From Acidobacteriota bacterium (GTDB lineage: Bacteria > Acidobacteriota > Blastocatellia > UBA7656): a stretch of 64,000 nt of DNA. The translations under genes were made by a program, and so were the position numbers. The notes beneath the pieces are model-generated. The model did not search any database, had not been told where the DNA came from, and saw only the letters and a list, made by a program, of their open reading frames with translations. The stretch covers positions 73,410-137,409 of the forward strand of contig JBFMDH010000008.1 of assembly GCA_040754075.1 (NCBI GenBank), given 5' to 3'. Below, piece by piece: positions 1 through 16,357 of the stretch; the first letter of the stretch is position 1, and every line of letters begins with the position of its first letter.

Positions 1-409
1 AATCCGTCGTGCCAATGCGATAAACCGACTGCCCGCTGGCATTGACGCTGCCGGAAAACTGCACGAAATAGGAATCATTATAAGGCGAATTATTTTCCGC
101 TTTACTGCGCACCCATAACCGATAAGCAACACCCGACTGGGCATTAAAACTCATCTCGAAATAGTGTGCGGGACTGGCGAGCGCGGTTGTCAATTTCGGC
201 GCGCCGAAATCAGCGTTTTTCAGGCATGCGCCACCAGCGGCTGTAGAGTCTGAAACATTAGTAAAATTGCCAATTTTGGTGCTGGCTGTCGATGCATATA
301 AAACGATTTCACTGGCACTTGCTTGAGCGGTTGTTGGCATTTCTCGCCATACAACCATCAGGGACAGAACGATAAACACAAAACTTGTCTGTCTGAAAAC
401 TTTTTTCAT
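1..409 (-). CDS. Secreted protein, N-terminal part (cut by window edge)
   Basis: Read from the reverse complement: an ATG at 409 follows GGAGA/AAGGA ribosome-binding sequence, and the frame stays open to the window edge (about 136 residues). A signal peptide of about 30 residues (Lys-rich start, hydrophobic core, TAQA end) is followed by a stretch resembling a beta-rich carbohydrate-binding or discoidin-like domain, with AAGGACLKNADFGAPKL and later aromatic residues spaced as in sugar-binding modules. From memory, such domains recur in large secreted Acidobacteria proteins; that family link is not checked. The C-terminal part and any catalytic domain lie outside the window, so the function is unknown. 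Confidence 0.7.
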   Translation of the reverse strand, partial: MKKVFRQTSFVFIVLSLMVVWREMPTTAQASASEIVLYASTASTKIGNFTNVSDSTAAGGACLKNADFGAPKLTTALASPAHYFEMSFNAQSGVAYRLWVRSKAENNSPYNDSYFVQFSGSVNASGQSVYRIGTTD

Positions 410-1406
410 TCCTTCAAAATCTCCCTAGAAAAAATTGCCTGTTTAAACAGGCTTCGTGAGTTCACTTAAAACAATTTTCAATTGGCTGCGACCGGTTTAC
501 GTTTAATTGCACCTGAACCGGCAGGCAGGCATTTACTGCCTTGTAATAAGTCGCGCCAAATATGAAACACACATGATTTTCGTGAGAATATCTTTAGTTC
601 GGATTGGGTATTGCCTTTAACAAAAGGTCATGGCGCACGTAGCCAAACCTGTATCTTTCAGGCAACCACTTATGCGAAGTTGAATAATCAGGGGTATGAA
701 AGCCCAGACTATACATTTAGCAATTATGAATATGCCTGCAAAACCCAACCGATTTTTTTTTCATTTACATTCAAAATAAGAAATTGCAAGGGGCATATGC
801 TTGAGAAAGGGGGGTATCTCTTTAACCTTTCCACCGGCAAGAAGCGAGTGAGTCGGATTTTGAATAAACCAATATCCGCTATGGTCAAACAAATTGCTCA
901 TCTTACCTTGATTAATCAATTTTATTTACAGGAGCGAGAGATGCAAATTGAGATTGCGCTCAATCAAAAATAAAATCCAGTGTGAGGTTCGGTTCATTTT
1001 CCCCATTGAACCGATGGTTTTTTATTGCTTTGCTTTTTGTTTTGAGAATCGGATTATACTGAGTGACTCCCACCCAATCAATAATAACCGACACCCCCGA
1101 CGCAGATTATGAAATCATCATAGATTTTTGAAAAGCTCACCTGAATTCGGTATGGAAGCATCCGGGATATAAAAGCGTGGCATCGCGATTAAAAAACGCT
1201 GCTGACATTTTGCAGTTTTAATGGAATTAGAAGTATTTAACCGATGAGTGAAGCAGATTGCCGAAAAAAGGCAAATTCAGGTTTGGACAGTTGAACGAAA
1301 TCTGAAAGGCGTTCGCTAAACCTGCATTCGCTTCCAAAGACAGTCGCTGTCCTGCAAAAAGCTGGCGGATGGCAATCAAGGATGAGTCGTGGCACAGGCT
1401 TGAGAA
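410..1406. other. Gene-poor gap of about 1 kb
   Basis: No convincing gene is seen. A 120-codon frame at 611-973 starts at TTG, has no ribosome-binding site and no recognisable motif. It ends just before a hairpin at 990-1013 followed by a T-rich run, which is the only hint that it could be transcribed. The minus-strand frame at 1227-1412 overlaps the start of the glycosyltransferase gene and is not credible. The promoter of the glycosyltransferase operon probably lies in the right half. Confidence 0.5.
990..1024 (+). terminator. Possible rho-independent terminator
   Basis: A perfect 7-bp stem CGGTTCA/TGAACCG (990-996 with 1007-1013) encloses a 10-base loop and is followed by ATGGTTTTTTATT. 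The stem is short, so strength is uncertain. No sure gene lies upstream on this strand. Confidence 0.35.
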
Positions 1407-2393
1407 ATGCAATTAGACGTAATTATCCCAACCTTTAATCGTCAGGATTTACTCCCACGCACCTTAAAAAGCTTGCTCGAAGCAGACCTGCCACAAGAGT
1501 TGACGGTTCACGTCAATGTTGTCGATAACAATTCCAAAGACCGCACGCGACAGATTGTTGATGAATGGATGAACCGGTTTGATGGGCGATTGCATTATCT
1601 CTTTGAACCCATTCAAGGGCGTTCAGCGGCGTTAAACAAAGGCATTTTATCCACCACCGGAGAACTGGTCGGCATGATTGACGATGACGAAGAAATCCAT
1701 CGTCAGTGGTATGAGACTGTGCAGAAGGCGTTCACTCATAACCATATAGATTTTATTGGTGGTCCCTATTACCCCTGCTGGGGCGCCGAGTGTCCGGATT
1801 GGTTGCCGAGAAAATATGCCGGCGTCATCGGTTGGATTGATGGCGGAAGTCAGGTTTGTCCGTTTAACCGAAGTTACCCGGGCATTTTAATGGGCGGAAA
1901 CGCGGTGATTCGTCGCGCCATTTTAACTAAAGTCGGATTGTATTCAACTGCGCTTGGACGCACCGATACACATCTGCTGGCGGGTGAAGATGAAGAGATG
2001 TATGAGCGGTTGTTGAATGCCGGGGCGCGCGGTTTATATCTGCCCGATTTGATTATCTATCATTACATCCCGCCGCAACGATTAACCAAAAGTTATTTTC
2101 GCAAATGGTGTTTCTGGCGCGGCGTATCAATGGGATTGCTTCACCGGGTACATCAACGACAATCCGCCATTAAACAACTTTGGGGCATTCCGCGATACCT
2201 TTATGGCGAAGCCCTGAGAGGCTTTAAAAGAAAATTGCAGGATGCACTGCGGTTGAAAATAGATTCCGAACAGGGCTTTGCAGGGGAATTAGCTGCCTGG
2301 GATTTAGCCGGTTACCTATACGGCAGGCATTTCTATAAACCTGTCGCCACGAATAAATCCACAAAAGGTTTGGCAGTTATCTCTTCGGTGTAA
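1407..2393 (+). CDS. Family 2 glycosyltransferase
   Basis: A 328-residue GT-A fold enzyme that would transfer a sugar from a nucleotide donor to a growing surface polysaccharide in the cytoplasm. The N-terminus VIIPTFNRQDLLPRTL is the classic GT2 nucleotide-binding start, and the metal-binding DxD region appears as IDDDEE at residues 91-96. A later EDEEMYERL segment (about residue 193) fits the catalytic-base region. The C-terminal part (PPQRLTKSYFRKW) closely resembles that of the glycosyltransferase at 5685-6716, so the two look like paralogues flanking one exporter. It is the first gene of an operon with an ABC-2 exporter. Donor and acceptor cannot be read from sequence. Confidence 0.88.
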   Translation: MQLDVIIPTFNRQDLLPRTLKSLLEADLPQELTVHVNVVDNNSKDRTRQIVDEWMNRFDGRLHYLFEPIQGRSAALNKGILSTTGELVGMIDDDEEIHRQWYETVQKAFTHNHIDFIGGPYYPCWGAECPDWLPRKYAGVIGWIDGGSQVCPFNRSYPGILMGGNAVIRRAILTKVGLYSTALGRTDTHLLAGEDEEMYERLLNAGARGLYLPDLIIYHYIPPQRLTKSYFRKWCFWRGVSMGLLHRVHQRQSAIKQLWGIPRYLYGEALRGFKRKLQDALRLKIDSEQGFAGELAAWDLAGYLYGRHFYKPVATNKSTKGLAVISSV

Positions 2394-2471
2394 CCGAAAT
2401 CATTTTGAATTCACACCATAAAATTTTGATTGAAACGAAGCAATTGAATTCACCGGAAACTGGAATCGCAC

Positions 2472-3359
2472 ATGGCAACATCTGATTTAATCAACGCAGG
2501 AATCAACCGAGAGTTATCTGATGCCACACCTCGGCGGGTGTCGGTGATTCGTCCACCTTCGCTCACCCGACTAAATTTCATCGCTAACCTGACCAAACTT
2601 TTCCACTACCGGGATTTGCTCTATACCCTGACGCTGCACCGCATCAAGGTGCGTTACAAGCAATCTTTATTAGGGATTTCGTGGGCGATTTTACAACCGC
2701 TGTCGATGATGTTGATCTTCACCATCATCTTTTCGATTTTTGCCAGAATGCCAAGCGAAGGTTCGCCCTATGCGTTGTTTGCTTATGCCGCTTTGCTCCC
2801 CTGGACATTTTTTTCTACTGCCCTTGCGAATGCGACGAACGCCCTGGTCAGTCATACGCAACTGGTAACCAAAGTCTATTTCCCGCGAGAGATTCTCCCG
2901 ATGACTTATGTTTTCGCTTCGTTATTCGATTTTTTAATTGCCTCGACGGTGCTCGCCGGGTTAATGGTGTATTACCGCCTTTCACCCACCTGGAATGCGC
3001 TTTATGCGGTGCCCATTCTATTCATCCTGACCTGTTTTGCCACGGCGATGGGATTGCTGTTTTCTGCAACCCAGGTGCGCTTGCGTGATATAGGGGTCGC
3101 GGTGCCGTTGCTTTTGCAACTGTGGATGTTTGCCACGCCGGTGATTTATCCGTTGAGCGCGGTTCCCGGACGTTTGCGAATGATCTATGTGCTCAATCCG
3201 ATGGTTGGGATTGTCGAAAATTTTCGCCAAACCATTTTGAATGGCGCATCTCCCGATTTCTACACGCTGGGGATATCGGGTTTGATGGCGCTGGTCTTGC
3301 TGATTATTTCTTATCTCTATTTCAAACATACGGAAGCCACAATGGCGGATGTGATTTAA
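2472..3359 (+). CDS. ABC-2 type polysaccharide export permease (Wzm-like)
   Basis: A 295-residue integral membrane protein with about six hydrophobic segments, beginning after a cytoplasmic N-terminus of about 60 residues. The motif RYKQSLLGISWAILQPL followed by FARMPSEGSPYALFAY is typical of the permease of capsule, O-antigen or teichoic acid exporters (ABC2_membrane family). It ends 19 bases before the ATPase gene, and the two form one transporter that flips lipid-linked glycans across the inner membrane. Glycosyltransferases on both sides support a polysaccharide cargo. Confidence 0.9.
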   Translation: MATSDLINAGINRELSDATPRRVSVIRPPSLTRLNFIANLTKLFHYRDLLYTLTLHRIKVRYKQSLLGISWAILQPLSMMLIFTIIFSIFARMPSEGSPYALFAYAALLPWTFFSTALANATNALVSHTQLVTKVYFPREILPMTYVFASLFDFLIASTVLAGLMVYYRLSPTWNALYAVPILFILTCFATAMGLLFSATQVRLRDIGVAVPLLLQLWMFATPVIYPLSAVPGRLRMIYVLNPMVGIVENFRQTILNGASPDFYTLGISGLMALVLLIISYLYFKHTEATMADVI

Positions 3360-3378
3360 GCAGTGGAGCAGGTTGACG

Positions 3379-4626
3379 ATGGCTGATTTGTTATTCAATG
3401 GTGTCTCAAAAAAATATCGGATTCGTGAAGACCACGAGACCAATGGTGAGCGCCGCCCACTAATTTCCAAAATGCAAAAATTATGGCACCGCAAGCGCGA
3501 TTTCTGGGCGCTTCGCGAAGTCAGTTTTGAAGTGGAACGCGGTGAATCTCTCGGCATCATCGGGCATAACGGCGCGGGTAAAAGCACGATTTTAAAATTG
3601 CTCTCCAATATCACCACCCCGAGTAAAGGAGAGATAAAAATCAACGGCAGCCTTTCGGCGCTCATCGAGGTCGGTTCCGGATTTCACCCGGAACTGACTG
3701 GTCGTGAGAATATTTATTTGAATGGTTCGATTCTGGGTATGCGACGACGCGAGATTGCCCGCAAGCTTGAAAGCATTGTCGAATTCGCCGGCATCAAACC
3801 ATTTCTCGATTTACCTGTAAAACGTTACTCATCGGGAATGTACGTTCGATTGGGCTTTTCAATTGCCGCGCATCTCGAACCGGATATTTTGTTGCTTGAT
3901 GAAGTGCTCGCGGTTGGCGATTTGGCATTTCAGGCAAAATGCATGCAACGCATTGATGATTTGCGACAGGCGGGGACGACGATTGTGTTTATTTCGCATG
4001 ACCTGGCAGCCGTTCAACGCCTGTGTAAACGTGTATTACTTATGCAAAAAGGCGGAATCATCGCCAGAGGGTCGGCAATGGATGTCGTGAATAGGTATCG
4101 CCAGACGGCATCCGATTTTTCGCCGCCCGATGGTCATGGACTACTCATTACCAAATCGGCGGAGGTCACAGCTTTAAATTTTTATGATGCGCAGGGCAGA
4201 GAAGTAAAGGTGATGAAAACCGGAGCCGAAATGCGCGTCAAGCTCGATTATTTTGCCCGCGAACGCATTGAAGATTGCGTTTTCGACATCTGCTTTTATT
4301 CAGCCAATCGGGAATTGACCTGTCAATTTACCACCGAATTAAAAGAAGACCGGATTGATATTGAACCGGGTCAAGGAACGGTTGAATATCATTGTCCCGA
4401 AATCGGATTGCTACCCGGTATCTATTATGTCGACGTGACCATCAAACATCGCGCCTCTCCAAAGGGAAGTCACATTGATTGGCAATATCAACGGGCGATG
4501 TTAAGGGTTGACCCCGGAAATTTGGTTAAAGGGAAATTTTATATGCCGCACGAATGGCGACATGAGCGACCGGATGTTGCGACGAGTCTCAGAGCGGAAC
4601 AATTTCTCAATCAAACGGTTTCCTGA
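3379..4626 (+). CDS. ABC polysaccharide exporter ATPase with C-terminal cargo domain (Wzt-like)
   Basis: The ATPase partner of the preceding permease, 415 residues from the ATG at 3379, which has GGAG 10 bases upstream; a TTG two codons earlier is less likely. Walker A is GHNGAGKST at residues 62-70, the signature is YSSGMYVRLGF, and Walker B is ILLLDEVLAVGD. The last 150 or so residues form an extra beta-rich domain like the Wzt C-terminal domain that, in O8/O9a antigen exporters, binds the capped non-reducing end of the glycan. Its presence suggests that chain length is fixed by end modification before export, although no capping methyltransferase or kinase is seen in this operon. Confidence 0.9.
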   Translation: MADLLFNGVSKKYRIREDHETNGERRPLISKMQKLWHRKRDFWALREVSFEVERGESLGIIGHNGAGKSTILKLLSNITTPSKGEIKINGSLSALIEVGSGFHPELTGRENIYLNGSILGMRRREIARKLESIVEFAGIKPFLDLPVKRYSSGMYVRLGFSIAAHLEPDILLLDEVLAVGDLAFQAKCMQRIDDLRQAGTTIVFISHDLAAVQRLCKRVLLMQKGGIIARGSAMDVVNRYRQTASDFSPPDGHGLLITKSAEVTALNFYDAQGREVKVMKTGAEMRVKLDYFARERIEDCVFDICFYSANRELTCQFTTELKEDRIDIEPGQGTVEYHCPEIGLLPGIYYVDVTIKHRASPKGSHIDWQYQRAMLRVDPGNLVKGKFYMPHEWRHERPDVATSLRAEQFLNQTVS

Positions 4627-4690
4627 TGGGCAATCGTTCAAGCCAAAAGTGGCTTTACGTTCGACATCGGAAACCTGAATGGAATAAAAA

Positions 4691-5662
4691 ATGCCGCGCC
4701 CCGTGAAGAAGTCAAATCTGAAATATCGCAAACCGAAAGTGGTTTCCGTCATCATTCCCTGCTATAACCACGCCGGTTTTTTGCAAGAAGCGATTGACAG
4801 TGTCTTACAACAAACCTACAAGGATTTTGAAATCCTCGTCATTGATGATGGGTCAACCGATAAAACTTCAGCAATTGCCGCGAGCTTTTCTGCGGTTCGT
4901 TATGTCTACCAAAATAATCAGGGGTTATCAGCGGCGCGCAATCGCGGCATCAGCGAAAGTCTGGGAGAGTTTCTGGTGTTTCTGGATGCCGATGATCGCC
5001 TGCTTCCCAAAGCTCTTGAAATCGGCGTGAAGGCATTAAGCCTCAGACCGGATTGCGCCTTTGTGTATGGGCGCAGCCAATACATCAATGATAAAGGCAA
5101 GCATATTCCGGTCAACTACCCTGAGCCGGTTTTAACCGATCACTACCTGGCGTTGCTGCACTCTAACCATATTTGGATGCCTGCGCAGGTGATGTATCGC
5201 AGCAAGGTTTTCGACGAGGTCAGAGGGTTTAATCCCTCAATCAGCGCCGCCGCTGATTATGAACTGTACCTGCGAATTACCAGGCGTTTCCCGGTTTATA
5301 ACCACTTGGAGATTGTTGCCGAGTATCGCCAGCAACTTACCAGCATGTCGCGCAATTACCGGTTGATGCTCACAACCACCATGCGGGCGCTCAATTCTCA
5401 GAAGCCAGCTATTCGAGATGAACCCGATTATCTCAATGCCTACCGTGCAGGAAAAAAACTCTGGCAGTCTTACTACGGCGAAGGTTGCGTTGACCAGTTT
5501 CGTAAAGACCTGCGAAAGCCGGGACGAAAAGCCGAATTATTCAAAGCGATGATAATCCTGCTTCGATATTATCCGCAGGGTGTGGTCAAGCATTTAAGGA
5601 AGAAATTGACATTGATGTTGAAACGCCCACCCGAAATTCGCTCGACTCCCTCATTGAAATAA
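4691..5662 (+). CDS. Family 2 glycosyltransferase
   Basis: A 323-residue GT2 enzyme. VVSVIIPCYNHAGFLQEAI is the nucleotide-binding start, IDDGSTDKT follows at about 51, and the DxD region is FLDADDR at about 97-103. The later SAAADYELYLRI segment matches the EDxE-like acceptor region of WbnJ/SpsA-type enzymes. It belongs to the same operon as the ABC exporter. The C-terminal 100 residues are basic and helical, consistent with membrane association. Sugar specificity is unknown. Confidence 0.88.
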   Translation: MPRPVKKSNLKYRKPKVVSVIIPCYNHAGFLQEAIDSVLQQTYKDFEILVIDDGSTDKTSAIAASFSAVRYVYQNNQGLSAARNRGISESLGEFLVFLDADDRLLPKALEIGVKALSLRPDCAFVYGRSQYINDKGKHIPVNYPEPVLTDHYLALLHSNHIWMPAQVMYRSKVFDEVRGFNPSISAAADYELYLRITRRFPVYNHLEIVAEYRQQLTSMSRNYRLMLTTTMRALNSQKPAIRDEPDYLNAYRAGKKLWQSYYGEGCVDQFRKDLRKPGRKAELFKAMIILLRYYPQGVVKHLRKKLTLMLKRPPEIRSTPSLK

Positions 5663-5684
5663 CAGCCGGAGGAGTAATCATCCG

Positions 5685-6716
5685 ATGGATGAAGCGTTTG
5701 ATATATCGGTCATTCTTTGTACCTATAATCGCGCCGCGCAACTGCGACAGGCGATTGCCAGCATTATGGCGCAGGATTGTCCGCACCTGCGATTTGAACT
5801 GATTATCGTGGATAATCATTCAACCGACCAAACGCGCCAGGTTTGTCAATCCATGATGGCGCAAAGCCCCATTCCGATTCGTTACTTTTTTGAAGCGAGG
5901 CAAGGGGTTTCTTATGCGCGCAATTCAGCTATCAACCTGGCTAAATCGGAAATTCTCGCCTTCTTTGATGATGATGTTTGGGTGACGCCGGATTGGTTAG
6001 CCACTATTAAACGACGATTCGATGAGCATCAGGATGTCGATGGCATTGGCGGCAAAGTTTTGCCGGTCTGGAACTGTGTAACGCCCGGTTGGTTGAACCC
6101 TGCGCAATATGCGCCGCTCGCGCTTCAGGATTATGGCGATAAAAGTATACAGATAAACGCCAGTCAGCCCTTATGTCTGGTTGCTGCCAATCTGGCAATT
6201 CGCCGCCAAGTTTTTACGCGAATCGGTCTTTTTTCTCCCACCCTGCAACGTGTCGAAAATGGTATCGGTTCGATGGAAGACCATGAATTGCATTTGCGAA
6301 TCTGGGATGCCGGATTTCAAGAAATGTATTGTCCGGAGATGATTGTCAAAACCGAAGTGCCGGGCGAACGTTTGACAAAAAATTATTACCGGCGGTGGCA
6401 TCAAGGTCACGGCCATTTTTATGGGTTGTTGCGGGATCGGGAATTTGAACGCTCGATTATGCGCCTGTTCGATGTGCCAATGCATTTATACAAACAGACA
6501 CTGGTTGATTTATGGGGTTGGGGAAAAAATCGGTTGTTTGGAAAAGCTGATAAGGCATTTGCCAGTGAAATACAACTCTGGTTTTTCATGGGCTTTTTTA
6601 AACAACGCTTAATGACCAGCAGAGCCGGCGTGACCCTGAAAAAAATGCGTGAGGTTTTTACCTCGCTTTATGCTTCACCAAAGCCGCAAAGAGAAAACCC
6701 ATCAATTGACGAATAA
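5685..6716 (+). CDS. Family 2 glycosyltransferase
   Basis: A 343-residue GT2 enzyme with a strong GGAGGAG ribosome-binding sequence before the ATG. ISVILCTYNRAAQLRQAI opens the fold, VDNHSTDQT follows, and the metal site is FFDDDV at about 94-98. MEDHELHLRIWDAG is the probable catalytic region. The segment GERLTKNYYRRW near residue 227 parallels GT 1407-2393, so these two are probably paralogues. This is the last gene of the polysaccharide operon; a terminator-like hairpin follows about 105 bases downstream. Confidence 0.88.
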   Translation: MDEAFDISVILCTYNRAAQLRQAIASIMAQDCPHLRFELIIVDNHSTDQTRQVCQSMMAQSPIPIRYFFEARQGVSYARNSAINLAKSEILAFFDDDVWVTPDWLATIKRRFDEHQDVDGIGGKVLPVWNCVTPGWLNPAQYAPLALQDYGDKSIQINASQPLCLVAANLAIRRQVFTRIGLFSPTLQRVENGIGSMEDHELHLRIWDAGFQEMYCPEMIVKTEVPGERLTKNYYRRWHQGHGHFYGLLRDREFERSIMRLFDVPMHLYKQTLVDLWGWGKNRLFGKADKAFASEIQLWFFMGFFKQRLMTSRAGVTLKKMREVFTSLYASPKPQRENPSIDE

Positions 6717-6820
6717 ATACGACCCTCTTACCAATCCTTTAAAGCAAAAGCAAAACGATTCAATGGTTTTCTTGCACTGATGCTGTGAATCAAAAAGCTT
6801 ACCGGCTTGATTGCCGCAAA

Positions 6821-6868
6821 GTTGGTGGGTGTCGATAAGTTTAAGGAATTTCCCGCCAACGGGTTTTT
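6821..6868 (+). terminator. Rho-independent terminator of the polysaccharide operon
   Basis: A 9-bp stem GTTGGTGGG/CCCGCCAAC (6821-6829 with 6852-6860, one wobble pair) has a 22-base loop and is followed by GGGTTTTTC. It lies downstream of the last glycosyltransferase on the same strand. The rest of the 6717-7053 gap shows no gene and probably holds the promoter of the esterase gene. Confidence 0.5.
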
Positions 6869-7053
6869 CATTTGCCCATAGTGAATAAAAATTAATTACA
6901 CTTCGTTCATCCTATTAGGTGTCACTCGCCAAAATAAAAAAATAGCGGTAAACTCTTGAGCACCAGGAGACCAGAAGCTTTCACGCATGAATCTGTCTTT
7001 GCGCGTGTTTTTCTATATCGCGCCAATTATTTCATTGAAGTAAAGGTCAGGTT

Positions 7054-7935
7054 ATGAAATTTAAAATCACATTTCTCTTAGGACTGTTTTTTGTTCTGTT
7101 GAGTTCGGCACACGCGCAAAAAGTTATTCGCTTATATGAAGGCGCTGCGCCCGGCTCCGAAACCTGGACACACAAAGAGAAAGAATATTTCTCGCCTATC
7201 TGGAATACCCAAGTCGTTACCAACGTTGTGCATCCTACGCTTACGGTCTATCTGCCTGATGCCAAAACGGCTACGCAAACCGGTGTGATTATCTGTCCGG
7301 GAGGCGGTTTTCACGCGCTTTCCATCAACAGCGAAGGCATCGATGTTGCCAGGTGGTTAAGCAGCAGAGGCATTGCCGCCTTTGTCTTGAAATATCGTCT
7401 GGTGCCAACCGGCGAAGATGGCGTCAAAGAGTTCATGGAAAAGATGAATAAAGGACAACGGTTTGATACCGACCCGGCAATTTCCATGGGAATCGCTGAT
7501 GGCATTGCGGCAGTCGCTTATGTGCGAAAACACGCGGAGGAATTCGGTATCGCTGCGAATCGCATTGGCATCATGGGATTTTCAGCAGGCGGCACGGTGA
7601 CCGCAGCCGTTGCCTTTCAATATTCAAAAGACAGCCGCCCGGATTTCGTCGCGCCGATTTATCCGTATATGGGCGCGGTCAAACCCGCAGAAGTTCCCGC
7701 AGACGCGCCGCCGCTTTTTGTGTTAGCGGCAACCGATGATCAACTCGGTCTTGCGCCCCATAGCGTTCAACTTTATGGCAAATGGACTGCCGCAAAAAAA
7801 ACTGCCGAAATTCACCTCTATTCAAAAGGCGGTCACGGGTTTGGCATGCGCAAACAAAATATCCCTTCTGACCGGTGGATTGAACGGTTCGGTGAATGGT
7901 TACAGGTGCAAGGCTTGATGAAACCGCTTCATTGA
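7054..7935 (+). CDS. Secreted alpha/beta-hydrolase esterase (BD-FAE / acetyl-xylan esterase type)
   Basis: A 293-residue protein with a signal peptide (MKFKITFLLG..., cleavage after AHA near residue 21). The oxyanion-hole motif CPGGGFH lies at 81-87, the nucleophile serine is S177 in GFSAGG, the probable acid is in ATDDQLG, and the catalytic histidine is in KGGHGFGM near the C-terminus. This order matches secreted carbohydrate esterases that remove acetyl or similar acyl groups from plant polysaccharides. It lies 26 bases upstream of the alpha-L-rhamnosidase, so it probably de-esterifies rhamnose-containing glycans such as pectin side chains. Substrate is inferred from context only. Confidence 0.82.
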   Translation: MKFKITFLLGLFFVLLSSAHAQKVIRLYEGAAPGSETWTHKEKEYFSPIWNTQVVTNVVHPTLTVYLPDAKTATQTGVIICPGGGFHALSINSEGIDVARWLSSRGIAAFVLKYRLVPTGEDGVKEFMEKMNKGQRFDTDPAISMGIADGIAAVAYVRKHAEEFGIAANRIGIMGFSAGGTVTAAVAFQYSKDSRPDFVAPIYPYMGAVKPAEVPADAPPLFVLAATDDQLGLAPHSVQLYGKWTAAKKTAEIHLYSKGGHGFGMRKQNIPSDRWIERFGEWLQVQGLMKPLH

Positions 7936-7961
7936 TTTTTCGATTAACAAGGAATTTGACG

Positions 7962-10760
7962 ATGACCAAAAAAATGCTGCGCTCAAGGTATTCGCTTTTA
8001 ATTGCCTGGTGTTTGATTTTTTCTACTGTCGCGAACGGTTTACTGTTGGCGAATCAAGGAAGTAGTGCTGCGCAAATCAAAGTTGTTCATTTACGAACCG
8101 AGTATAAAGAAAATCCGATAGGCATTGATGCGCGCAACCCGCGTTTAAGTTGGCAACTGCAAACGGCAGGTCGCGGCGTCACGCAATCGGCGTATCAACT
8201 TCGCGTGGCGCGCAGTGAGCGCGATTTGCGAAGCGGCAATAATCTGGTTTGGGATTCCGGGAAAGTCAACTCCGACGAATCCATTCATCGCGTCTATGAA
8301 GGCACGCCCTTGAAATCCGGTGAGCGTTATTTGTGGCAAGTGCGCATCTGGGACGGAAGCGGAAAAGCATCGGACTGGAGCGAAGTCGGATTCTGGGAAA
8401 TGGGATTGCTCAGTCCTACGGATTGGTTGGCGAATTGGATAGAGCCTGACATTGCAGAAGAAGCGAAAAAATCGCAACCCGCACCGATGCTTCGCCGCGA
8501 GTTTAAAGTCGGTGGCGCGATTGACCGGGCGCGGGTTTATGTGACGAGTCGCGGACTTTATGAAATGCAGTTGAACGGTCAGCGCGTCGGCGATGAAGTG
8601 TTTACGCCCGGTTGGACAAGTTATAAAAAACGCCTGCAATATCAGACCTATGATGTGACCGCGCTTTTAAAAAACGGAGACAATGCCGTAGGCGTCATGC
8701 TTGGCGATGGGTGGTATCGCGGCTTCATAGGTTTTTCCGGGCAACGCAATGTTTACGGCGATAAACTCGCGCTGCTTTGTCAGATTAAAATCACTTACAA
8801 AGATGGGCGCGAAGAAATCATTGCAAGCGACGACAAATGGAAAGCGACGACCGGCGCTATCTTGCTTTCGGAAATCTATCACGGCGAAACCTATGATGCG
8901 CGACTCGAAAAAGGCAATTGGACGAATGCTCAATTTGATGACCAGCAATGGGCAAAGGTCAAAATTGCCAGTTACCAGAAAGATAATCTCATCGCGCCTG
9001 CGGGACCTCCCGTAAGAAAAGTTCTGGAAATCAAACCTGTCAAAATTATCAAAACCCCTGCGGGCGATTCCGTCGTTGATATGGGACAAAATATGGTCGG
9101 CTGGGTACGTTTGAAAGTTCAAGGCGCTGCGGGTTCGACCGTCACCCTTCGCCATTCCGAAGTGCTCGATAAACAGGGGAATTTTTATACCGAAAATCTT
9201 CGCCCCGCAAAACAGTTGATTCAATACACCCTCAAAGGCGGCGGCGTGGAAACCTTCGAGCCACATTTCACCTTTCAAGGTTTTCGTTATGTCGCGGTCG
9301 GTGGTTTTCCCGGAGAACTGACGCTTGATAACGTAACCGGCATCGTCATTCATTCGGATATGAAACCGACGAGCGAATTTGAAACCTCAAGCCAACTCAT
9401 CAATCAATTGCAACACAACATCATCTGGGGACAGAAAGGCAATTTCCTGGATGTGCCCACCGATTGTCCGCAACGCGATGAGCGATTGGGATGGACGGGC
9501 GATGCGCAAGTCTTTTCTCGCACAGCCGCTTTCAACATGGATGTCGCGGGATTTTTCACCAAGTGGTTGAAAGATGTCGCCGCAGACCAATTCGATAATG
9601 GCAGTGTTCCTTATGTTATCCCCGATGTGTTGAGCAATCCAAACAGGCAAGCCGCAGGGTCAGCGGCGTGGGCAGATGCGGCGGTGATTATTCCCTTTAC
9701 GGTTTATCTCAGTTATGGCGATAAACGCATTCTTGAAGAACAATACGCCAGTATGACCAAATGGATTGCTTATATGAAAAATCGCGCCGGTGATGATTAC
9801 ATCTGGGATGGCGATTTTCATTTCGGCGATTGGCTCGCTTTTGCATCAACGGCATCGGATTATCCCGGCGCTACCACCGGCAAAGATTTTATCGCAACAG
9901 CTTTCTTTGCCTATTCGACAAGTCTCGTACAACGCGCCGCAGAGATTCTCGGAAAGCGTGATGACGCGGCAAAGTACGCCGAATTATTTAACAACGTCAA
10001 AGCCGCATTCAATCGTGAATTCGTTACTGCAACCGGTAGAGTCGGCGAAAACACCCAGACCGCTTATGCCCTGGCTTTGCAGTTCGATTTATTGCCCGAA
10101 AATTTAAGACCGGTAGCCGCAAAACGACTGGCGCAGGAAATTCGCGCGCGCAAACATCTCACCACAGGTTTTGTCGGTACGCCGTATCTCTGCCATGTGC
10201 TGACGCGCTATGGTTATTTGAACGAAGCCTATATGCTGCTCAATCGCGAACAGTATCCATCCTGGCTTTATCCTGTGAAACAAGGCGCGACGACGATTTG
10301 GGAACGTTGGGACGGCATTAAACCGGATGGGTCATTTCAGGATAAAGGAATGAATTCGTTCAATCATTATGCCTACGGCGCGATTGGCGAATGGATGTAT
10401 CGCGTGATGGCAGGCATTGAAATAGACCCGACAATGCCCGGGTATAAACACACGCTCATTCAACCGCAACCCGGTGGCAATTTCACCAATGTCAAAGCCA
10501 GCCATCAGACGATGTATGGCAAAGTGAGTTCCGCGTGGACATTGAAAGATGGGCAATTTGAACTGGGTGTCGAAGTTCCCGCCAACACTCGCGCCACTGT
10601 GCGTTTGCCGAAAGCCCAACTCGCAAACCTTAAAGAATCCGGTCAGGCTATCGGTAAAGGAAATGGCATAACCGATATTCGACAGGATGGTGAGAGCGTG
10701 GTTATCGAAGTCGGGTCGGGTCAATATCGTTTCGCGTATCCGATGGCAACCGCAAATTGA
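7962..10760 (+). CDS. Secreted alpha-L-rhamnosidase, family GH78
   Basis: 932 residues from the ATG at 7962, preceded by CAAGGAA; an upstream in-frame GTG would overlap the esterase and lacks a ribosome-binding site. A signal peptide/anchor of about 30 residues precedes the domain order of bacterial rhamnosidases: N-terminal beta domains (RLSWQLQ, WQVRIWDGSGKASDWS), a lectin-like domain, an (alpha/alpha)6 barrel and a C-terminal beta domain. The GH78 acidic motif DVPTDCPQRDERLGWTGD is near residue 497, HFGDWLAF near 622, and TTIWERWDG with the catalytic-base glutamate near 776. It hydrolyses terminal alpha-L-rhamnose outside the cytoplasm and feeds the importer and catabolic genes downstream. 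Confidence 0.95.
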   Translation: MTKKMLRSRYSLLIAWCLIFSTVANGLLLANQGSSAAQIKVVHLRTEYKENPIGIDARNPRLSWQLQTAGRGVTQSAYQLRVARSERDLRSGNNLVWDSGKVNSDESIHRVYEGTPLKSGERYLWQVRIWDGSGKASDWSEVGFWEMGLLSPTDWLANWIEPDIAEEAKKSQPAPMLRREFKVGGAIDRARVYVTSRGLYEMQLNGQRVGDEVFTPGWTSYKKRLQYQTYDVTALLKNGDNAVGVMLGDGWYRGFIGFSGQRNVYGDKLALLCQIKITYKDGREEIIASDDKWKATTGAILLSEIYHGETYDARLEKGNWTNAQFDDQQWAKVKIASYQKDNLIAPAGPPVRKVLEIKPVKIIKTPAGDSVVDMGQNMVGWVRLKVQGAAGSTVTLRHSEVLDKQGNFYTENLRPAKQLIQYTLKGGGVETFEPHFTFQGFRYVAVGGFPGELTLDNVTGIVIHSDMKPTSEFETSSQLINQLQHNIIWGQKGNFLDVPTDCPQRDERLGWTGDAQVFSRTAAFNMDVAGFFTKWLKDVAADQFDNGSVPYVIPDVLSNPNRQAAGSAAWADAAVIIPFTVYLSYGDKRILEEQYASMTKWIAYMKNRAGDDYIWDGDFHFGDWLAFASTASDYPGATTGKDFIATAFFAYSTSLVQRAAEILGKRDDAAKYAELFNNVKAAFNREFVTATGRVGENTQTAYALALQFDLLPENLRPVAAKRLAQEIRARKHLTTGFVGTPYLCHVLTRYGYLNEAYMLLNREQYPSWLYPVKQGATTIWERWDGIKPDGSFQDKGMNSFNHYAYGAIGEWMYRVMAGIEIDPTMPGYKHTLIQPQPGGNFTNVKASHQTMYGKVSSAWTLKDGQFELGVEVPANTRATVRLPKAQLANLKESGQAIGKGNGITDIRQDGESVVIEVGSGQYRFAYPMATAN

Positions 10761-14727: not shown

Positions 14728-14728
14728 C

Positions 14729-14761
14729 CATTGCGGATTGCGGATTGCGAAATGCGGATTG
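14729..14761. repeat. Period-7 degenerate tandem repeat, single arm
   Basis: Directly after the rhaI stop, units of the type ATTGCGG occur about four times in register with few changes (ATTGCGG, ATTGCGG, ATTGCGA, AATGCGG). No complementary arm is seen nearby. It shares the 7-base period, but not the unit sequence, with the repeat before rhaI. Confidence 0.6.
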
Positions 14762-14817
14762 AAAAAAGAAGTTCATTTGCCAATCTATTTTTGCCTTCTA
14801 TAAATGAGCGGAAAATC

Positions 14818-15069
14818 ATGAGCGAACAATCGTTAAAATTTCTTCATTCTGAGAAGGACATAGCTCCGCTTAAACTTGAGATGTTTCGCAAGCTCTCAAC
14901 TCAAGAACTCATAGAGTCTTTGCGTCCGGGAGAAGAAGGCTCGCTCAAAACCAGACCGGATGGCACTGTGCTTGATGGACACCATCGGCTTATCATACTT
15001 AGGGAGCGAGAGATTGACATTCATGCTTTACCGCGCGAAATCCTTGAGAAGGATTCGCCGATGACATAA
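14818..15069 (+). CDS. Small ParB-like domain protein, partner of the phosphatase-nuclease gene
   Basis: 83 residues from the ATG at 14818. The C-terminal half contains RPDGTVLDGHHRLIILRERE; LDGHHR (residues 52-57) resembles the conserved turn of ParB/Srx-fold domains (LIDGHRR-type), and LPREI follows. In ParB proteins this region binds CTP or forms a nuclease-like site; what it does in an 83-residue protein is unknown. The stop codon is immediately followed by the ribosome-binding site of the next gene, so the two are translated together. It is not related to rhamnose use and appears inserted in that operon. It could act as an antitoxin, sensor or regulator of the neighbour; the fold call is from motif only. 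Confidence 0.6.
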   Translation: MSEQSLKFLHSEKDIAPLKLEMFRKLSTQELIESLRPGEEGSLKTRPDGTVLDGHHRLIILREREIDIHALPREILEKDSPMT

Positions 15070-15080
15070 GGAGGATACCG

Positions 15081-16259
15081 ATGGCAGCACGGATATACTG
15101 GATTGAAGCCCCTTGGAAAGGGAAATTGGCAATCATTCCGCGCCCGCCCGGAGGAGATTGGCTGAAAGATGAAGTCGCCGGTTGGCACGATGTTGGTATC
15201 AATGTCGTGGTCTCTTTTCTCACTCCAGACGAGATTGCCGAATTTGCTCTCGAAGCTGAAAAAGAATTATGTGAAGAGCAAGGTATCAGCTTTATTTCGT
15301 TTGCGATTTCCGACCGCCAGGTTCCCGCGTCAAAGAGCGAGACGTTAGCTCTTGTACAAAGATTAAAGCAATTGCTGGTCAAGGGAGAGAAGGTCGGTTT
15401 GCATTGCCGACAAAGCGTTGGCAGGTCGGCGTTGATTGCGGCTTGTTTACTGGTATCAGTAGGCGTAGAGCCGGACGAGGCTTTCAAACGCATCGGTTCG
15501 GCGCGTGGCGGCAAAGTGCCTGATACTGCCGAACAGCAGCAATGGGTAGCCGGTTTGGAAAAAGATATGTCAACGAAAGGCGAAAGGCTTTTCGAGGCGT
15601 ATTTGCTTTCGCAAGGCATTACTGATTATGAGTTTGAGAAAACCCATCAAGGCAAAAGCACAAGACCCGACTTCAGCGTTACGCTTGATAGGGAATATCT
15701 TTTTGAAGTGAAGGATTTTGAGCCGAGAGATATATTCCCTTCGGGGGCTTATGACCCTTTTCAACCGATCCGGTGGCAAATAGTGGAAAGCGATAAGAAA
15801 TTCAAAGACTATGAAGAGCAACCGTGTTGTCTGGCGCTTTATAACCACAACGCAAGTCTCATTCATTTGGAAGAGCCAGAAATTATATGTGGGGCAATGC
15901 CGCAAGTTACCACTATCAGTGCCATCATAACTTTGCGTGAGGTTGAAGTAGGGACACGAAAGCTTGGTGTGTATTTGAAGAAGTTGATGGCAAAGACGCC
16001 CGATATTACTCCCATCGAGGCTTATCGGGAAACCTTTTCCCCGGAAATAGATTTCGATAAGCATGAAAGACAGTTAGGCGTGATCATATGGGAGAATGCC
16101 TTTGCGCGTATCCCGTTTCCGCGAAATATTTTTTGTGGGAAGTTTGATGAGCGATACATTTTGGATAAAGGTCATCCAAGACGCATTTTTGTCGGCTCGG
16201 GACTGGCTGCCCTTGAAGAGATTGAGGAATCGGAATCGCTATTATTGAATGTTCCATAG
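15081..16259 (+). CDS. Tyrosine/dual-specificity phosphatase fused to a PD-(D/E)XK nuclease-like domain
   Basis: 392 residues with an AAGGAGG ribosome-binding site. Residues 1-160 are a cysteine phosphatase of the dual-specificity type: the P-loop CX5R is HCRQSVGRS with C109 and R115, and the general acid is D78 in ISDRQVP. Residues 165-260 look like a PD-(D/E)XK fold: a helix with E168/E172 (ERLFEAYL), D197 in RPDF, and E209-V-K211 in LFEVKDF. The end carries WENAFARIPFPRNIFCGKFDERY, a segment also seen, from memory, in restriction-type nucleases. Cytoplasmic. It is paired with the ParB-like gene and sits between rhaI and rhaB on the same strand. A defence or DNA-damage role is inference; the phosphatase half could act on a protein, a nucleotide or a nucleic-acid end. 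Confidence 0.72.
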   Translation: MAARIYWIEAPWKGKLAIIPRPPGGDWLKDEVAGWHDVGINVVVSFLTPDEIAEFALEAEKELCEEQGISFISFAISDRQVPASKSETLALVQRLKQLLVKGEKVGLHCRQSVGRSALIAACLLVSVGVEPDEAFKRIGSARGGKVPDTAEQQQWVAGLEKDMSTKGERLFEAYLLSQGITDYEFEKTHQGKSTRPDFSVTLDREYLFEVKDFEPRDIFPSGAYDPFQPIRWQIVESDKKFKDYEEQPCCLALYNHNASLIHLEEPEIICGAMPQVTTISAIITLREVEVGTRKLGVYLKKLMAKTPDITPIEAYRETFSPEIDFDKHERQLGVIIWENAFARIPFPRNIFCGKFDERYILDKGHPRRIFVGSGLAALEEIEESESLLLNVP

Positions 16260-16357
16260 CGTTATCGGTTTGAACCTATTTATATCGAATCACAAAGTTT
16301 CACCGGTGTTGATTGCTGTTTTTATCAACAGTTGTCTGAGTCACTTTCAGAATATCA

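Follow-up and report, generated by a model that had tools for sequence, protein, structure and literature searches.

Within the 64,000-nucleotide stretch analysed here (the window), a two-gene cassette is flanked by genes resembling those for L-rhamnose isomerase and rhamnulokinase, which we take to be rhaI and rhaB, respectively (Table 1). Both of its open reading frames are present where a first-pass annotation had placed them, and the residue numbers assigned there to the putative active sites (D78, C109, R115, D197, E209, V210 and K211) are all correct. The mini-ParB gene and the gene of the phosphatase-nuclease fusion are arranged head to tail with 11 bases between them, and the stop of the former does abut the ribosome-binding site of the latter, the TAA running into TAAGGAGG 5' of the fusion ATG. 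The surrounding sugar operon, likewise recognized at first pass, is presumably of the rhamnose type, going by these gene names.

Table 1. Features of the cassette and its insertion site (window coordinates).
Feature	Coordinates	Strand	Description
Mini-ParB gene	14818..15069	+	83 aa; predicted single-domain ParB/Srx-fold protein, L-D-G-H-H-R at residues 52-57 of the translation
Phosphatase-nuclease fusion gene	15081..16259	+	392 aa
DSP/PTP phosphatase domain (predicted)	15081..15566	+	Fusion residues 1-162; HC109RQSVGR115, general acid D78
PD-(D/E)XK domain (predicted)	15567..16256	+	Fusion residues 163-392; D197 ... E209-V-K211
Period-7 tandem repeat, unit ATTGCGG	14730..14761		Between rhaI and cassette (Tandem Repeats Finder)
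Insert, rhaI stop to rhaB start	14728..16357		1630 bp

Insertion of the cassette into the sugar operon between rhaI and rhaB is supported by related genomes. The rhaI gene was found in 21 of the 162 genomes of the class that were searched, among them the window's own genome and a second genome of the same family (G005); 18 of the 19 others were retrieved with flanks, 16 showing rhaI together with rhaB and two stopping at contig edges. All 16 measurable relatives have 0-335 bp between the two genes, compared with 1630 bp in the window. The corresponding gap of G005 measures 2458 bp and contains PIN/toxin-antitoxin-like genes, namely a PIN_3 protein above its cut-off together with PIN-like and CopG-antitoxin-like proteins below theirs, from which it follows that the slot accepts toxin-antitoxin-like cassettes. 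The two PIN-type genes and the antitoxin-like genes span positions 1740-3633 of the G005 locus (L065), and the slot may take small cassettes repeatedly.

The cassette had at first been described as if inserted, flanked by a period-7 repeat. The short rhaI-rhaB distances of the relatives bear out the insertion but not the repeat as its mark, because the element is found genome-wide: a single 17-mer of it has 42 exact, partly overlapping matches in the same genome. It was therefore rejected as an insertion scar and is probably not part of the module; some of its matches form clusters that oppose each other at distances of a few hundred bases. Foreign base composition was also dropped as an argument, given that the GC contents of the mini gene (0.46) and of the C-terminal part of the fusion (0.441) deviate too mildly from the 0.448-0.523 seen in 30 window ORFs of at least 300 aa.

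Modelling gives the 83-residue mini-protein a predicted ParB/sulfiredoxin fold, in agreement with the ParB-like LDGHHR turn noted at first pass. A VIA-align 2 comparison of an AF2 model built from 28 sequences (pLDDT 84.3) listed 16 rows, of which the top 14 belong to sulfiredoxin, ParB, Noc, PadC or Spo0J; their Z values fall from 6.0 (6ky4, sulfiredoxin; rmsd 2.8 over 69 aligned positions) to 3.2, against 2.9 for row 15; VIA-align also gave a Z of 5.2 to the ParB-N structure 5k5d. Z values under 8 are middling when taken alone, and it is the uniformity of the list that led us to accept the fold. Foldseek likewise, if weakly, placed sulfiredoxins and one ParB-N domain on top (best E 0.69). 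At the sequence level, none of the models in Pfam, NCBIfam, PADLOC and PHROGs matches the mini-protein at E<=1, ParBc is matched by none of the 28 aligned rows (28/28) at the same threshold, and a three-row profile searched against solved structures returned chance-level matches only. Residues G54, H55, H56 and R57 are invariant in the 28-row alignment; the constancy of DGHHR is partly a product of selection, since the search patterns were exact peptides partly including this motif, and most rows were found with patterns holding GHHR or a neighbouring motif. The protein differs from the chromosome-partition ParB CTPases in that it has no ParBc match, ends after the minimal fold and has no recurring parA neighbour.

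The N-terminal part of the fusion is predicted from its sequence to be a DSP-type phosphatase with the CX5R site (C109, R115, acid D78) that had been pointed out before. It matches PF22785 (6.4e-7, 30.3 bits against a cut-off of 27; residues 30-128) and CDKN3 (2.5e-6, above cut-off; residues 36-127), phmmer relates the domain to solved PTPs, and H108, C109, R115 and D78 are invariant in 37/37 aligned phosphatases. With bacterial DSP/CDKN3-like phosphatases (PF22785, PF05706) it shares the HCX5R motif and general acid, above the Pfam cut-offs; the family described here differs in forming a subgroup with RPRGGDWL and VPET consensus stretches, often paired with a mini-ParB, and its member in the window in being fused to a nuclease-type domain. 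Profile comparison of the phosphatase with the mini-protein gave no match, and the earlier suggestion that the phosphatase processes nucleic-acid ends found no support. DSP phosphatases were also encountered in other arrangements: fused to an apparent ABC-type ATPase in the window's own genome (contig C12; L015, 1513-2631), directly behind an apparent ABC-type ATPase in G054 (L011, 621-1812), and fused to an ADP-ribosylglycohydrolase on a Fuscovulum plasmid (L096, 3022-4455), where the annotated neighbours are AAA ATPase, WYL, HEPN and PD-(D/E)XK genes.

The association of these two proteins extends well beyond the window. A contig scan with the mini profile alone, leaving the phosphatase unused, yielded 62 stretches matching a pattern, and 31 loci encode a mini relative, a lower bound since the patterns are exact peptides. 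These loci are named as Acidobacteria, Rokubacteria, Planctomycetes, Chloroflexi (Litorilinea), Myxococcota, Binatia, and Beta- and Deltaproteobacteria. A phosphatase-family match adjoins the mini gene in 29 of these 31 further loci, or in 28 if counted by ORFs with standard starts, L055 with its broken mini beside an intact phosphatase then dropping out as well; the two remaining loci hold a shortened mini with no phosphatase match in 8.15 kb (L051) and mini remnants with no phosphatase match (L058). The distance between the two genes, measured in 23 of these loci, ranges from -11 to 22 bp, and the order is mini-first in 19 and phosphatase-first in four (L039, L044, L051, L052 and L055-L058 are left out of this measurement), and in L056 the C-terminal half of a mini is fused behind the phosphatase. 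Among 297 sampled genomes of the phylum, the mini gene occurs in three, each time with an adjacent phosphatase, and the phosphatase at 17 places in 15 genomes (E<=1e-12), a rarity that puts the 29/31 adjacency far beyond chance. Other neighbour families recur in at most three of 34 loci, in which neighbour ORFs were picked by length, so that wrong-frame ORFs may hide some families.

The conserved system is hence the mini gene and the phosphatase, without the nuclease. The first-pass annotation had treated mini and fusion as one cassette and suggested looking for their co-occurrence in relatives: the pairing of mini and phosphatase stands, whereas the fused nuclease, found in this genome only, is not a conserved part of it. 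The earlier interpretation is partly borne out, and of the two findings that it had named as speaking against it, a missing PD-(D/E)XK fold and a pair absent from relatives, neither was made. Such a conserved adjacent pair (29/31) of sporadic spread (mini in 3/297 genomes) is what is looked for in a toxin-antitoxin module. We recognized no description of a ParB-like/CX5R-phosphatase pair in the open-licence literature, and the word "phosphatase" does not occur in the main text of a ParB-fold survey (PMC12704722). As far as literature searches reach, the two-gene module is real and undescribed.

The partners differ in how often they occur alone: the mini gene is rarely seen without the phosphatase, which is itself often found without the mini. 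Three of the 17 phosphatase places in the phylum sample have a full mini (window included), one has a remnant (L102) and 13 have no mini match; 15 of the 48 non-window rows of a phosphatase tree are phosphatases without a mini. Broken or partial mini genes adjoin a phosphatase in five loci (L052, L055, L056, L057 and L102); the phosphatase is intact in L055 and its end is affected too in L052. Some of the frame breaks may stem from faulty assembly, many of the loci coming from metagenome bins. No intact mini was seen beside a clearly broken phosphatase, but in L039 the phosphatase frame next to an intact mini has no standard start codon.

The tree comprises 49 rows, omitting eight duplicates of loci that it includes and four distant matches below 130 bits (L010, L011, L015 and L016). 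Rooted at the midpoint, it unites the 29 paired and five decayed rows in one 37-row group with a support of 83/93, below the starred level; the solo rows L004, L005 and L006 fall inside this group and the other 12 outside. The pair label changes nine times on the tree, compared with 15.8 times in shuffles. L003, with a mini, and L004, without one, are sisters (99/97) in the same neighbourhood. At positions 1025-1504, L004 has a 159-aa ORF without family assignment just 5' of the phosphatase, where L002 and L003 carry the mini-ParB, and the end of this ORF overlaps the phosphatase start. L054, whose record is named as a betaproteobacterium, falls among the Rokubacteria, perhaps through misbinning.

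An asymmetry of this kind would be shown by a toxin and its antitoxin, and equally by a phosphatase with an optional regulator. The latter possibility amounts to a nucleotide-regulated switch: the mini-ParB would be a non-toxic, NTP-binding regulatory subunit gating a housekeeping or signalling phosphatase, and loss of the regulator would leave a working solo phosphatase. Solo phosphatases are indeed common (the 13 of 17 places above), housekeeping families are found among the neighbours of the pair, and the ParB fold has been described as a versatile NTP-binding module of which short single-domain versions exist (PMC12704722). Three points fit such a switch less well: the mini-protein is homologous to the tip of a polymorphic toxin (see below), its spread is sporadic, and the cassette is inserted between operon genes in the window. 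We regard it as a serious possibility, nearly as likely as the toxin-antitoxin reading developed below.

The C-terminal part of the fusion appears to be a PD-(D/E)XK domain, as had been proposed for the same chain as the phosphatase, and both a structural model and comparison with the PDB support this. An AF2 model of residues 161-392 from six sequences (pLDDT 84.4, pTM 0.81) places helix 6-17, strands 23-25, 38-41 and 45-53, helix 68-81 and strand 89-95, model numbering, in an alpha-beta-beta-beta-alpha-beta core with the D...(E/D)xK signature, in which D197 would lie just ahead of the second core strand and E209 and K211 within the third. VIA matches in the PDB are headed by two XisH proteins (Z 8.6), BsmI (8.1), AF2093 (7.9) and Cdn1 (7.2), with further rows for PaqCI, Vsr, PspGI, NucC (6.1), Can2, McrC and TnsA; most of the listed matches we take to be PD-(D/E)XK proteins, and unrelated rows such as acetyl-CoA carboxylase (6.3) are interspersed. 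The best Foldseek match is SfsA (E 0.0022), every other match being above 0.1. The domain thus shares its predicted fold and D/E/K signature with XisH, BsmI, Can2/Cdn1 and NucC, but it is matched at E<=1 by none of the models in Pfam, NCBIfam, PADLOC and PHROGs, and its free-standing relatives are few.

Such relatives were found in G019, G031, G147, G253 and G309. The junction is clean: the phosphatase ends at about residue 160, and residue 163 (15567) is encoded by an in-frame ATG close to the point where the free-standing proteins start; the K is invariant in the alignment with all five, and the window's domain is without a stretch after GAM that is present in the longer ones. A profile of the relatives and the window's domain, run against 396 genomes of the phylum, returned four known relatives, the window's own genome and weak matches in G421 and G062, and the phage and plasmid collections contained no relatives. 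The fusion itself was seen in the window's genome only, being absent from the other 36 aligned phosphatases and from those of L039, L052, L056 and L057. Ten proteins chosen from the 59 in the five free-standing neighbourhoods were scanned with PADLOC. In G147 (L116, positions 116-9632), a short free-standing relative lies near SngA, SngB and PDC-S06 matches; a type II-like methyltransferase is present in L113 and a PDC-S03 match in L117, and the scan gave weak matches in L114 and none in L115. On these few examples, the free-standing nuclease family leans toward defence contexts.

The neighbourhoods of the pair were scanned in a similar manner, with PADLOC and Pfam applied to 103 proteins from the 31 mini loci. 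On each flank, one or two of the closest ORFs with at least 90 aa were taken where present; as length was the criterion, wrong-frame ORFs may be among them. PADLOC returned 87 models at E<=1e-5, none in more than three proteins, and Pfam 148 families, none in more than two, as judged from the best 25 of each; the named Pfam families include many housekeeping ones. Single matches to SspA/DndA, BrxH, DpdF, DrmD, SngC and PDC-S01 models, among those listed, are presumably cross-hits, produced by general ATPases and helicases and by a cysteine desulfurase. The idea of a defence island around the pair, which had been put forward for checking, was rejected because no defence family recurs, and neither the mini-protein nor the whole fusion has a PADLOC match at E<=1. 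A viral origin was also set aside: scans for it gave two weak ParB-like loci (L059 and L060) with the mini alignment and none with the phosphatase alignment, and the phage collection held no match to the mini-protein.

These results weigh on the possibility of an anti-phage system, in which the phosphatase would sense or remove a phosphoryl signal and so release the fused PD-(D/E)XK nuclease, with the mini-ParB as sensor. Such a system could draw on the D197/E209/K211 domain and on the defence-type matches near the free-standing relatives (L116, L113 and L117, of five neighbourhoods), but the restriction of the fusion to one genome and its absence from the phosphatases of the 31 mini loci, the lack of nuclease relatives in phage and plasmid collections and the absence of any defence model from more than three of the 103 neighbours make it unlikely.

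The mini-protein is related to polymorphic toxins. In the plasmid collection, the window's mini (P0001) has a single match at E<=0.1, to the C-terminal tip of a HINT protein of the polymorphic toxin type from Streptomyces sp. NBC_01727 (L092; 38% identity over 78 aa, 78.6 bits), to which the mini of L040 is 57% identical over 70 aa; the PT-HINT domain ends directly before this tip. Three plasmid matches of the L043 mini are weaker (E 0.2-0.4); the gene that carries one of them is annotated SpvB/TcaC N-terminal. Tox-ParB domains have been described with a strongly conserved DGHHR motif, and the immunity families given for them are Imm20, Imm27 and Imm-SuFu (Zhang et al., PMC3482391). The mini-protein shares the motif and predicted fold of these domains and aligns over most of its length with the HINT-toxin tip. 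It differs from the Tox-ParB described there in being encoded by free-standing genes of about 80 aa in the aligned loci, not as the last part of a secreted toxin with several domains, with no secretion parts and with a phosphatase as partner in place of those immunity families. Its one clear toxin relative, moreover, carries NGNTR at the DGHHR position, and the downstream neighbour of that toxin gene encodes no phosphatase but a 117-aa protein that Pfam does not match. The homology nevertheless strengthens the toxin-antitoxin or conflict half of the role suggested at first pass, while its defence half lacks a recurring family.

Comparison with other members of the fold suggests what the mini-protein might do. 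The GmrS motif DGQQR, which resembles DGHHR, has been proposed to bind an NTP as the sulfiredoxin signature does (PMC4619093), and the mini-protein would have in common with sulfiredoxin and GmrS the minimal ParB/Srx fold and a GxHR-type turn proposed there to bind phosphates. Judging from the motif, it would carry His55 where sulfiredoxin has its catalytic Cys, and it differs from GmrSD in having no HNH partner. A logic similar to the one proposed here, a phosphorylating toxin with a phosphatase antitoxin, is known from KKP, in which kinase toxins are described as restrained by a phosphatase (PMC11341870). The toxins of KKP, as described there, are two Ser/Thr kinases on prophages, whereas the present module has two genes only and no kinase family match, its proposed toxin has a predicted ParB/Srx fold and its phosphatase is of the CX5R class. 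Phosphoryl transfer could also serve metabolism, the pair then being a kinase and a phosphatase acting on a small molecule in the manner of the free serine kinase SerK, an archaeal ADP-dependent enzyme annotated as ParB (PMC5120207). We consider this very improbable, as SerK homologs are treated as a distinct group in that source, and the pair has no common metabolic neighbourhood and a sporadic distribution.

Altogether, we tentatively favour a phosphotransfer-type toxin-antitoxin module, with the mini-ParB as toxin and the phosphatase as antitoxin, to which a nuclease arm would have been added here. This reading rests on the adjacency in 29/31 loci and the partial mini fused behind a phosphatase (L056); on the occurrence of the phosphatase without the mini, the reverse being rare; on the homology to the HINT toxin tip and the DGHHR of Tox-ParB (PMC3482391); on the rhaI-rhaB insertion and the PIN/antitoxin-like genes in the G005 slot; and on the precedent of KKP (PMC11341870) together with the NTP role proposed for DGQQR (PMC4619093). 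Against it speak the NGNTR tip of L092 and its non-phosphatase neighbour, the lack of a catalogue model for either the mini-protein or the nuclease domain, the many housekeeping families nearby, the two loci without a phosphatase match (L051 and L058), the missing standard start in L039, and an asymmetry that fits an optional regulator.

In this toxin-antitoxin module, which would be self-contained with its two genes, the mini-protein would be the active, potentially toxic partner. Its GHHR turn may hold an NTP, from which a phosphoryl group would be transferred to a host molecule; alternatively, the protein may cleave a phosphodiester in one. The phosphatase would act as antitoxin by dephosphorylating the target or the mini-protein, or by holding the latter inactive. 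In this genome the antitoxin would have gained a nuclease arm through C-terminal fusion to the PD-(D/E)XK domain, and the cassette would have entered between rhaI and rhaB, a slot filled by toxin-antitoxin-like genes in a relative. We speculate further, as an outside chance, that the pair represents a new toxin-antitoxin or defence class, in which a minimal ParB/Srx-fold phosphotransferase toxin, a free-living cousin of the Tox-ParB tips, is neutralized by a CX5R phosphatase; the antitoxin's PD-(D/E)XK domain would here be a second effector, set free once something, for instance a phage, binds or blocks the phosphatase.

The size of about 80 aa makes the mini-protein easy to test. The phosphatase of the pair is a further candidate for an enzymatic antitoxin, here from the CX5R class, and for Tox-ParB domains and single-domain ParB-fold proteins, for which nuclease, NTPase and phosphotransferase activities are the candidates, a conserved phosphatase partner hints at phosphoryl transfer.
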